Of a stretch of DNA of 51,605 nucleotides, positions 433 through 4,157 are shown in pieces; the first letter of the stretch is position 1; each line of letters begins with the position of its first letter. Location: assembly GCA_017511945.1 (NCBI GenBank), contig JAFWHR010000011.1:1-51605 (forward strand), read 5' to 3'. The position numbers and the translations under genes were made by a program. The DNA comes from Bacilli bacterium. Its GTDB lineage: Bacteria > Bacillota_I > Bacilli_A > RF39 > UBA660. Below the pieces are notes generated by a model. The model searched no databases, was not told where the DNA came from, and saw only the letters and a program-made list of their open reading frames with translations.

Positions 433-2715
433 ATGGAAAAAATAAAAGGACTTACTGAAAAAGAAGTGCATGATTTGAAAGAAAAAGGGCTTGTAAATTA
501 TAAGTCTGATGTAAAAACTAAGTCGATAAAACAGATAATTTGTGGAAATGTTTTTACACTTTTTAATTTTTTAAACTTTGGATTAGCACTTGCTATCTTT
601 TTCACAGGATCATATAAGAATTTGCTCTTTTTAGGTGTTGTTTTTTGTAATACAATTATCTCTACAGTTCAGGAGATAAGAAGTAAAATAACTGTCGATA
701 AGCTATCTTTAATGAATGAAAGTAAAACTACTGTAATAAGAGGTGGAGTAGAAAAAGTTATAAGCATATATGATATAGTACTAGGTGACATTATAAAATT
801 AACTCCTGGCAGTCAAATTCCAACCGACTGCACTTTAATAGATGGTGATGCTTTAGTTAATGAATCACTTATAACTGGTGAAGAAGAGCCAGTGGAAAAG
901 AAAAGTAAATCTAATCTTTTTTCTGGAAGTTTTATAATTAGTGGAACTTGCTACGGTAAAGCAATACATGTCGGAAGAGATAATTACGCTTCTACAATTG
1001 CTTTAGAGGCTAAATACATTAAAAAGGTTAACTCTGAAATTATGAATTTTATCAATAAAATAATTAAATATATTTCGATTGCTATCGTGCCTATTGGAAT
1101 TATGCTTTTATTAAATCAGATGAATAAGATGGAGCTTAACGATGCGATAATTGGAACAGTAGCAGCTTTAATAGGAATGATTCCAGAAGGACTAGTACTT
1201 CTTACAAGTACAGTTTTAGCTATTAGTATTATGAGACTTGCTAAGTATAAAGTTTTAGTTCAGGAATTATACTGTATCGAGACTTTAGCTCGGGTTGACA
1301 CTTTATGTTTGGATAAAACTGGGACAATTACAGAGGGGGTTATGGAAGTTTCTGAAATAGTTCCTTTGAATGGAGTTAAAATGATTGATATTACAGATGC
1401 ACTTGGACTTATGAGTTATCATTTAGATGGAGATAATCAGACGATGAATGCTATAAGTGCAAAATACTCCAGAAAAAATGATTATGAGGTGTTAAAAAAA
1501 GTGCCATTTTCTTCAAAGAATAAATGGTCTGGAATTTCATTTGAAAAGGTGTCTTATGTAATAGGTGCTCCTGATATAATATGTGACTATAAGATAAAAG
1601 AATTAGATGACTATACTAACTATAGGGTAGTCATGTTATGCAAAACGAATAAGGTACTAGATAGATCTCTACCTGACAATTTAAAACCGATGGCTTTAAT
1701 TGTTATTAACGATAAGGTTAAAAAAGATGCTAGGGCAATACTTAATTATTTTAAAGAAGAGGGTGTAGATATTAAACTTATATCTGGCGATAATCCCATA
1801 ACAGTTGCATCGGTTGCTGAGAGAGTAGGGGTTGAGAATATCAAATATATAGATATGAGTAAAACTAAACTAGAAATATCAGATATAGTAGAAGAGTATA
1901 ACATATTTGGAAGGGTAACGCCTCAACAAAAAAAACAGATTATAACCCACTTAAAAGAAAAAGGTCATACTGTTGCGATGACAGGTGATGGGGTAAATGA
2001 TATATTAGCTTTAAAGGAATCTGATTGTAGTATAGCGATGAATAATGGGTCTGATGCTGCTAGGTGTGTATCGCAATTAGTTCTTTTGGATTCTAATTTT
2101 TCATCTATGCCTAAAGTAGTTGCTGAAGGAAGAAGAAGTATAAATAACATTCAAAGGTCATCTTCACTATTTTTATGTAAGACTTCTTATGCGACGCTTT
2201 TAGCTATAATATTTACATTTTTAGGTAGAGCGTACCCTTTTATGCCTATACAGCTTACTTTAACTAGTACATTAACTATAGGTATTCCATCATTTATTTT
2301 AGCTCTAGAGCCCAATAATGAGAGAATAAATGGAAGTATGATTATAAATGTTTTAAAGAAATCTCTTCCAACAGCTTTAACTATAGTATCTACGATTTTG
2401 CTCATAATGATTCTTCCTGGATTTGTTAGACTTTCTAAAGATGAGATATCTACGTTGTGTGTCATTGCAACTGGACTTACTGGTTTTATACTACTTTATA
2501 GAATATGTGTTCCTTTTAATTCTATTAGAAGAATACTATTTATAGGTTTAATAATTGCCTTTATTATAGCTTTAATATTTTTAAAAGATCTTTTTTCACT
2601 TGTAGTACTAACACCTAAATTACTAATTATATCAACTTCTTTATTTGCCTTAGATATAATGCTGTTTAACTTCTACACTAAATTATTTTATAAAGTAGCA
2701 GACAAGATAAAATAA
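433..2715 (+). CDS. cation-transporting P-type ATPase (CtpE-like)
   Basis: ATP-driven cation pump of the plasma membrane. Visible in order are an N-terminal GLTEKEV segment, two membrane segments, the actuator motif TGEEEP, a transmembrane IPEGL motif, the phosphorylation site DKTGT around residue 293, the hinge motif TGDGVND, and six C-terminal membrane segments. The IPEGL motif and overall layout resemble the P2-type, CtpE-like pumps, for which calcium transport has been reported. The ion here is inferred, not shown. The start is ATG 433, with GAGGG 6 bases upstream; an upstream in-frame TTG at 397 lacks a good ribosome binding site. The 760 residues are normal for the family. It is a single-gene unit with its own terminator. 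Confidence 0.9.
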   Translation: MEKIKGLTEKEVHDLKEKGLVNYKSDVKTKSIKQIICGNVFTLFNFLNFGLALAIFFTGSYKNLLFLGVVFCNTIISTVQEIRSKITVDKLSLMNESKTTVIRGGVEKVISIYDIVLGDIIKLTPGSQIPTDCTLIDGDALVNESLITGEEEPVEKKSKSNLFSGSFIISGTCYGKAIHVGRDNYASTIALEAKYIKKVNSEIMNFINKIIKYISIAIVPIGIMLLLNQMNKMELNDAIIGTVAALIGMIPEGLVLLTSTVLAISIMRLAKYKVLVQELYCIETLARVDTLCLDKTGTITEGVMEVSEIVPLNGVKMIDITDALGLMSYHLDGDNQTMNAISAKYSRKNDYEVLKKVPFSSKNKWSGISFEKVSYVIGAPDIICDYKIKELDDYTNYRVVMLCKTNKVLDRSLPDNLKPMALIVINDKVKKDARAILNYFKEEGVDIKLISGDNPITVASVAERVGVENIKYIDMSKTKLEISDIVEEYNIFGRVTPQQKKQIITHLKEKGHTVAMTGDGVNDILALKESDCSIAMNNGSDAARCVSQLVLLDSNFSSMPKVVAEGRRSINNIQRSSSLFLCKTSYATLLAIIFTFLGRAYPFMPIQLTLTSTLTIGIPSFILALEPNNERINGSMIINVLKKSLPTALTIVSTILLIMILPGFVRLSKDEISTLCVIATGLTGFILLYRICVPFNSIRRILFIGLIIAFIIALIFLKDLFSLVVLTPKLLIISTSLFALDIMLFNFYTKLFYKVADKIK

Positions 2716-2728
2716 ATCTTGTCTTTTC
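2700..2728 (+). terminator. terminator of the P-type ATPase gene
   Basis: A 9-bp perfect stem (agacaagat 2700-2708 with atcttgtct 2716-2724) overlaps the stop codon and is followed by T residues. Confidence 0.8.
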
Positions 2729-2752: not shown

Positions 2753-2782
2753 TTGACATAATCTTCATTTAAGATGTATAAT
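2753..2782 (+). promoter_or_regulatory. consensus promoter of the GH25-like gene
   Basis: TTGACA (2753-2758), an 18-base spacer, TATAAT (2777-2782): both hexamers are perfect. The start codon lies 23 bases downstream. Confidence 0.8.
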
Positions 2783-2805
2783 CATTTTGTGAGTAGGGTG
2801 GTTTA

Positions 2806-4131
2806 ATGGAAGCATTAGAGAAGCAAAATTTAGTAAATAGAATAAGTAATATCTATCCAGATCACACTTTGTGGATTAAAGAACAATTCGGTAAGAAAAA
2901 GTTCATGTACACGAGTGGTAGGATAGTTTTTATAGATGTACCTGGAAGAAATTTAAAAAGACAGATTGAAATTCCATCAAAAGAAGACCCTAGTTATAAA
3001 AATGCTTGGATAAATGTATATAACCACTGTTTAGACTATTTAGAAGGTTCTATTAATGTAGCTTGTCTAGAAAATAAGTTTATCCAGAGGATGGGAAATA
3101 GTTGGACACTCAATGGTCATACTATTTTTTGGCCTAAATATAATCCTAAAACTGCTGATTATGCAAGGGGACTTGAGAAGATTTTAGATGAATATATGTA
3201 TGTCAAAAAGAAATACATAGAACTTCATTCTAAACGCAGTAAGGGTCTTGTAGTTAGAAAGACGGAAGTTAAGTTAGACACTCCAAGACCTATTAGAGAA
3301 AATAGGGCTTTGAGAAGAGAAAAGAACTATATTAAAAATCTAGATATCAAGTATCAAAATTTATCTGCTTCTGAAAAAGATAAACCTTTAAAAACTGATG
3401 AAATAAGTGTCAATAATGAAGATAAATTTTTAAAAGTAAATGATATAAGTTCCAATAAAGAAAAACATGTAAAATTAGAAGAAGTTATAGATAATAAAGT
3501 AAAAATACATAAGATATCAGATGGTGATATATTAAATGGTAAGGACATCAGAAAACTTAAAGATACTTCAGATATGGTTTTAATTACATGTATGAATGTT
3601 TTAAATCCGAAAGAGGAAGATATTTTTCTCGAAAATAGTTCAAAGTGTAGAGACGCAAATCTTTCTACAGGCGCATTTATATATGGTGTTTCAACTGATG
3701 AAAAAGAAGCTGTTCAAGAACTTAAAAGACTATTTAATATGCTCAATAATATGAAAAGTGATTTTTCAGGTTTTATAGTATACTCAGTAAATAATGAATA
3801 CATAATTAAAAATAGAGATAGTGATATTAAACTTTTAAATTTCATTAACATGTATAACTCTATTATGAGATTGTTTAAGAAGATGGGGTATACTCCAACT
3901 CTTTCTATGAATTTAAGCAGTAAAAGAATTATTGATGACATAAACAGAAGATATAACATGCAGAATGAAAATGACATTATGTATGTAGTAGTAGTTAGAG
4001 ATTTAGAACAAGTTTCTAAAGATTCATCAGTTATAGTTGTCGATCCTTGGAATGATTTTGATTTAGTCAATGTTAAAAATAAAGAGATTTTAGATAAAAT
4101 TAGTGAAAAGAAGTCAAAAGTGAAACAGTAA
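2806..4131 (+). CDS. cytoplasmic protein with a GH25-like, apparently inactive C-terminal domain
   Basis: A 441-residue protein without signal peptide or membrane segment. Residues 1 to about 140 form an unrecognised domain. Residues 140-230 are a charged, lysine-rich linker. From about 235 on the pattern follows glycosyl hydrolase 25 (lysozyme fold): a strand with VLITCMN, then DIFLENSSKCRDANLSTGAF, a helix rich in acidic and lysine residues, a central strand, a helix ending FKKMGYTPTLSMN, and a late IVVDPWNDFDLV. The acidic residues of the GH25 active site are not present: the usual DxS start reads ISDGD and the usual DxE strand reads VYSVN. I infer a lysozyme-fold pseudoenzyme used for binding. 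The fold assignment comes from pattern reading and is moderate. A strong promoter precedes it. Confidence 0.6.
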   Translation: MEALEKQNLVNRISNIYPDHTLWIKEQFGKKKFMYTSGRIVFIDVPGRNLKRQIEIPSKEDPSYKNAWINVYNHCLDYLEGSINVACLENKFIQRMGNSWTLNGHTIFWPKYNPKTADYARGLEKILDEYMYVKKKYIELHSKRSKGLVVRKTEVKLDTPRPIRENRALRREKNYIKNLDIKYQNLSASEKDKPLKTDEISVNNEDKFLKVNDISSNKEKHVKLEEVIDNKVKIHKISDGDILNGKDIRKLKDTSDMVLITCMNVLNPKEEDIFLENSSKCRDANLSTGAFIYGVSTDEKEAVQELKRLFNMLNNMKSDFSGFIVYSVNNEYIIKNRDSDIKLLNFINMYNSIMRLFKKMGYTPTLSMNLSSKRIIDDINRRYNMQNENDIMYVVVVRDLEQVSKDSSVIVVDPWNDFDLVNVKNKEILDKISEKKSKVKQ

Positions 4132-4157
4132 AAAAAAGAGATTTATTTCTCTTTTTT
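4132..4157. terminator. bidirectional terminator between convergent genes
   Basis: A 10-bp stem (aaaaaagaga 4132-4141 with tctctttttt 4148-4157) with A and T runs on both sides. It serves the gene ending at 4131 and the minus-strand gene whose stop lies at 4143-4145. Confidence 0.7.

Follow-up and report, generated by a model that had tools for sequence, protein, structure and literature searches.

A conserved, probably cytosolic protein of GH25 descent lacks the muramidase DxE pair in a genus of uncultured Bacilli

Introduction

In GH25 muramidases, the Asp of a DxE motif is the proposed acid, the Glu supports it, and the nucleophile is the N-acetyl group of the substrate, while the second half of the barrel has been tied to target binding (PMC7954357). 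That a protein with a wall-lytic fold can be kept in the cytosol as a pseudo-hydrolase is already known from mycobacteria, where CwlM, a cytosolic amidase homologue whose enzymatic function is not essential, activates MurA (PMC4946905). A search of the open-access literature, within its limits, found no GH25 pseudoenzyme described.

Here, we analyze a protein family of GH25 descent, referred to below as pseudo-GH25, that occurs throughout a genus of uncultured Bacilli. As in CwlM, a wall-hydrolase homologue appears to be held in the cytosol lineage-wide and used without hydrolase activity, a likeness that is read here from sequence. The two proteins are not homologous: CwlM has an amidase fold, and its phosphorylation and its MurA target are known, whereas pseudo-GH25 derives from the GH25 fold.

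Results

The gene and the layout of its protein

The window, that is, the whole stretch of DNA that was analyzed, is a contig of 51,605 nucleotides (JAFWHR010000011.1). The genome assembly to which it belongs has 28 contigs that total 909,893 bases, at a completeness of 85%; the genus relatives with which it is compared are deposited metagenome-assembled genomes (MAGs) of uncultured Bacilli. The features of the locus are as follows:

2700 to 2724, forward strand: intrinsic terminator-like hairpin 3' of the upstream P-type ATPase gene (terminator scan).
2753 to 2782, forward strand: perfect sigma-70-type promoter, TTGACA-N18-TATAAT, also found before homologues.
2795 to 2801, forward strand: ribosome-binding site AGGGTGG in a short 5' leader; GGGTG(A/G) is equally placed in nearly all homologues.
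2806 to 4131, forward strand: open reading frame of the pseudo-GH25 protein, 441 residues, ATG at 2806 and TAA at 4131.
2830 to 3246, forward strand: genus-specific N-terminal domain, residues about 9–147, alpha-beta3-alpha-beta3-alpha in the model (model and searches).
3247 to 3498, forward strand: variable, probably disordered linker, residues about 148–231 (pLDDT mostly below 50; family alignment).
3499 to 4077, forward strand: GH25-derived (beta/alpha) barrel domain, residues about 232–424, with a confident match over ∼246–372 (profile and fold searches).
3520 to 3522, forward strand: near-invariant D239, perhaps what remains of the GIDVS Asp (the alignment may be off by one residue).
3784 to 3792, forward strand: former catalytic DxE, here Ser327-Val-Asn329 (alignments).
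4132 to 4157, no strand assigned: inverted repeat AAAAAAGAGA/TCTCTTTTTT, a probable two-way terminator between convergent genes (read from the sequence; under the scanner's G+C threshold).

Because a hairpin terminator follows the ATPase gene, the pseudo-GH25 gene is probably transcribed alone, as its own transcription unit; at its other end, T-runs accompany the inverted repeat, and a convergent CmpB-like gene lies beyond. The linker had been called lysine-rich in a first-pass annotation of this DNA, a description that suits the window copy and not the family, in which the linker is variable and most homologues are net acidic.

The C-terminal domain is a GH25 relative

Searches with family models give no hint of the origin of the protein: in Pfam, there is no match for the window protein even at E 10, and no family in Pfam, NCBIfam, or PHROGs rises above noise. 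None of the 32 aligned family members matches the GH25 model PF01183 at E 0.1, and a genome search with this model places the best genus members at E 0.04–0.1. Profile comparisons based on the family alignment (32 sequences from across the genus; homologues share 21 to 48% identity with the window protein) are far more informative. HHalign aligns the C-terminal domain of the family with GH25 domains taken from different genera within its taxonomic family at 98.6% probability (P 1.2e-15, 121 columns), and hmmsearch of the full family profile against all PDB sequences yields a sole match, the muramidase LytC (E 2.6e-9). A fold search with the model of the C-terminal domain points the same way, as its top six PDB matches are all GH25 proteins, led by 2wwc (E 5e-4, prob 1.00). 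The AlphaFold model behind that search was built from a shallow alignment of 17 sequences and is modest (mean pLDDT 63.6); it shows five beta-alpha units across residues 231–370 (block means of 69–89), degrades afterwards, and is weak past residue 370, and the second half of the barrel (i.e., strands 6 to 8) is therefore only weakly supported. The C-terminal domain is a genuine relative of GH25 muramidases, as the first-pass annotation had proposed from the pattern of strands and helices: the fold search returns GH25 barrels, and no alignment restores the DxE pair.

Compared with GH25 muramidases proper (PF01183; LytC of Streptococcus pneumoniae, PDB: 2ww5, 2wwc, and 2wwd), the family has profile homology across strands 2 to 5, a matching fold, and a common set of conserved fold-core residues, namely an Asn (N277), a Gly, and a Tyr. 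It differs in that the DxE pair and a Trp/Gln platform are gone, there is no export signal, an N-terminal domain has been added, and the sequences are too diverged for the Pfam model. By homology the superfamily is thus GH25, but, given what has been lost at the catalytic site, the substrate platform, export, and Pfam score, the family is not to be filed as a GH25 muramidase.

The catalytic pair is lost throughout the family

DxE is present in all 37 true GH25 domains that were checked, two of which come from the source genome, and in none of the 32 family members. The positions read ExN in 22 members, SxN in three (including the window copy), SxD, AxD, and QxN in two each, and AxN in one, such that the supporting Glu is gone in 32/32; in the window copy, two aligners agree on the residues S327-V-N329. 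The first active-site Asp is a separate matter: D239, within the sequence ISDGD, is kept in 31 of 32 members, with a spacing one residue off that of the GIDVS Asp, and may be its remnant. The earlier description of the domain as one without catalytic acids consequently holds in part: it is correct for the DxE positions of the window copy and five others, but 22 of the 32 homologues carry a Glu in place of the GH25 Asp, and the Asp of ISDGD is possibly that of GIDVS.

One could argue from the Glu kept in these 22 homologues, and from D239 as a possible first active-site Asp, that the protein retains muramidase activity or wall binding, reaches the outside through lysis or some unknown route, and in most homologues uses the ExN Glu as its acid. 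We consider this extremely improbable, given the Ser and Asn of the window copy, the loss of the supporting Glu in every member, and the absence of an export signal. Hydropathy analysis reveals neither a signal peptide nor a membrane helix in any of the 32 members (maximum 19-residue mean 1.43), in keeping with the annotation of the protein as cytoplasmic and free of a secretion signal; as there is no export or membrane segment, we infer that it stays in the cytosol.

The pocket appears re-tooled rather than decayed

In true GH25 domains, W151, W168, and Q169, on strands 6 and 7, are present in 37/37 sequences. The 32-sequence alignment of the family C-terminal domain contains no conserved Trp, and the GH25 Gln likewise has no conserved counterpart. 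What is conserved instead is a different set of positions, with K236, D239, C262, G294, Y326, N329, R398, D413, P414, and D419 kept in 26 to 32 of the 32 sequences. With the conserved Trp of lysozyme gone, binding of a muropeptide or other sugar in lysozyme fashion, as had been suggested, is not favored. A broader version of the idea is that the old sugar groove still binds a muropeptide, lipid II, or UDP-MurNAc and senses wall precursors or recycling products, which would be in line with GH25 ancestry and with the CwlM analogy; we regard it as unlikely, because the invariant Trp and Gln of strands 6 and 7 lack conserved counterparts and because the half of the barrel tied to target binding (PMC7954357) is the most diverged part of pseudo-GH25.

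The distribution of conservation along the barrel suggests continued use of the pocket. At the C-terminal ends of the first five strands, the relative entropy is 2.70, compared with a domain mean of 1.97 and a value of 1.87 for the strand N-terminal ends, and only 2 of 20,000 random draws of five four-residue blocks equal the conservation of the strand C-terminal ends (strand limits were taken from the moderate-confidence model, which makes the test supportive, not decisive). Active sites of barrel enzymes sit at the C-terminal ends of the strands. Conserved residues clustered in this region suggest a pocket that has been re-used, or re-tooled, rather than one that has decayed, possibly with a changed ligand or, conceivably, a changed reaction.

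Such conservation would also fit a new cytosolic enzyme, with K236, D239, C262, N329, R398, D413, and D419 catalyzing a reaction other than cleavage of muramic acid glycosides, since the polar residues kept in 26 to 32 of 32 members lie where a barrel has its active site. We nevertheless judge a new enzyme rather unlikely, as the protein matches no other enzyme class in fold or sequence and the former acid position varies freely among Glu, Ser, Ala, and Gln. Conversely, the same pattern is unexpected for a pure scaffold or assembly factor whose barrel is merely a stable module, because the strand C-terminal ends are conserved above the rest of the fold; the conserved consensus promoter, the new N-terminal domain, and the long, variable linker would all suit a scaffold, an explanation that we hold to be very unlikely.

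The N-terminal domain is a candidate new fold

Modeled separately, the N-terminal domain gives an alpha-beta3-alpha-beta3-alpha arrangement at a pLDDT of 82 and a pTM of 0.78. Its best match among PDB folds has an E value of just 0.024 (probability 0.44), and a search with it across 381 genomes of the taxonomic family produces, outside the genus, only short, weak matches, the best at E 3.8e-4 over 55 positions. The domain, listed as one of unknown type in the first-pass annotation, is thus restricted to the genus and has no convincing fold match in the PDB, and the model makes it a candidate for a new fold or for a strongly diverged known one. Two more specific interpretations were rejected: an internal duplication, to which the two beta3-alpha units of the model might point, is not significant when non-overlapping segments are compared, and a fold of the double-stranded-RNA-binding type, at which the alpha-beta3-alpha order hints, finds no meaningful match in the fold search.

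A genus-core gene of probable single origin coexists with true GH25 genes

Homologues occur in 43 of 44 genus genomes, usually as one copy, and the genome that lacks one is 62% complete; pseudo-GH25 is a genus-core gene. A phylogenetic tree groups the family into one clade (100/100 support) whose stem is very long, in agreement with a single origin and vertical inheritance thereafter. Horizontal spread was considered and rejected, as matches to the N-terminal domain outside the genus are short and weak and the full-length profile recovers the GH25 part alone there. A phage origin was set aside as well: there are 0 matches in 50,697 phage records, the PHROGs matches are scattered and weak, and the gene is found in nearly every genus genome.

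The family shares its ancestral domain and its genomes with the GH25 lysozymes of the genus, of which every genus genome encodes one to six above the Pfam cut-off; wall cutting is thus covered elsewhere. These lysozymes keep GIDVS and DxE and form a separate group, at a very long branch from pseudo-GH25. Two are found in the source genome (contig C21, 9397–9921, and contig C15, 21612–22178), both with GIDVS/GVDVS-type motifs and an intact DxE.

The homologue and neighbor searches envisaged in the first-pass annotation also show that genomic neighbors vary between clades. One group of species has a P-type ATPase gene with no assigned ion specificity upstream (63–74% identical), the other has an SPFH/HflK-like gene there, and the downstream neighbor, often a MacB-like ABC transporter, is different in the window. 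Because the neighbors differ between clades, genomic context does not give the function. In the window, the ATPase gene occupies 397–2715 (neighbor comparison, loci L063–L079 and L110–L129). An operon with the ATPase was rejected, and no functional coupling is proposed, given the intervening terminator, the gene's own promoter, and the change of neighbors between groups.

A conserved consensus promoter and a non-polar C-terminal tail

In 32 of 37 homologues, the gene is preceded by TTGACA-N18-TATAAT, a 12/12 match to the consensus with an unchanged 18-nt spacer, despite protein identities down to ∼21%. Perfect promoters are uncommon, numbering 32 genome-wide, compared with 1 for a reversed control pattern. 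The perfect promoter noted earlier is indeed present, and it makes the predicted expression likely; judged by this sequence, the gene is probably well expressed. Across the window, there are four perfect TTGACA/TATAAT promoters (at 2753, 34894, 47889, and 51404), compared with 0.24 expected by chance.

The C-terminus is [ASVLIT][AV] in 31 of 32 family members (mostly LAKAA or LANVA), compared with 8 of 292 other open reading frames at the same loci; like the promoter counts, these come from related, non-independent sequences and are not to be read as probabilities. The one exception is the window copy, which ends in KSKVKQ and has no non-polar tail (C-terminus at 4114–4128). Small non-polar C-terminal tails can direct proteolysis by AAA+ proteases, and the tail of the homologues is a candidate FtsH-type degron. 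Neither ClpX nor Lon is found above cut-off in any of the 44 genus genomes, and on these grounds the tail was rejected as a recognition signal for ClpXP or Lon; FtsH, in turn, is readable in the source genome from its AAA+ and HEAGH motifs, which makes it the candidate protease.

Two side observations concern the proteolytic machinery of the genus. A ClpX-like open reading frame of ∼453–517 residues that scores below the ClpX cut-off is present in ∼18 of the 44 genomes (e.g., genome G415, contig C53, 727–1329, and 17 more) and is a candidate divergent or re-purposed unfoldase. Moreover, the predicted tmRNA tags of the genus (loci L080–L109) mostly end in AFA (e.g., GNRNNYVPAFA and EGYNGQLAFA), an ending that has been described for Mycoplasma, where it accompanies the absence of ClpXP (PMC3985003). 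With ClpX and Lon below cut-off in 44 genomes, recognition of the tag may fall to FtsH or to a different protease. A tmRNA was sought in the source genome and not recovered, possibly because the assembly is incomplete.

Discussion

In our assessment, pseudo-GH25 is very probably a cytosolic protein of GH25 descent that is not a muramidase; that it regulates or binds, rather than catalyzing something new, is the best-supported reading, which we hold at about even odds. In our preferred scenario, the ancestor of the genus took a GH25 barrel into the cell interior on a single occasion, after which the barrel would have lost its DxE pair and gained a new N-terminal domain. The remodeled pocket would then recognize a ligand or a partner in the cytosol, with the N-terminal domain relaying its state, following the logic by which the non-homologous, amidase-like CwlM acts on peptidoglycan precursor synthesis in mycobacteria. 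The amount of protein would be set by the consensus promoter and by removal via the non-polar C-terminal tail, the latter in most species, although not in that of the window. That the ligand is a wall precursor is no more than a guess, made from ancestry.

Family searches with the pseudo-GH25 homologues return no amidase family match; the protein perhaps works like CwlM, by analogy, and is not a member of the CwlM family. The most far-reaching proposal, which we put forward tentatively and with considerable doubt, is that the re-tooled GH25 barrel has become a new kind of cytosolic enzyme or sensor that is expressed at a high level and is core to the genus, its N-terminal fold being new and its proteolysis regulated through the tail.

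To the libraries searched, one protein family and one N-terminal domain are new. With genus genomes of ∼1 Mb, a luxury protein is unlikely. Alongside CwlM, pseudo-GH25 would be an independent example of a cytosolic pseudo-hydrolase, in another fold and another phylum, fixed genus-wide and probably well expressed, and as such it would provide a clear test case for the recruitment of lytic folds into regulation.
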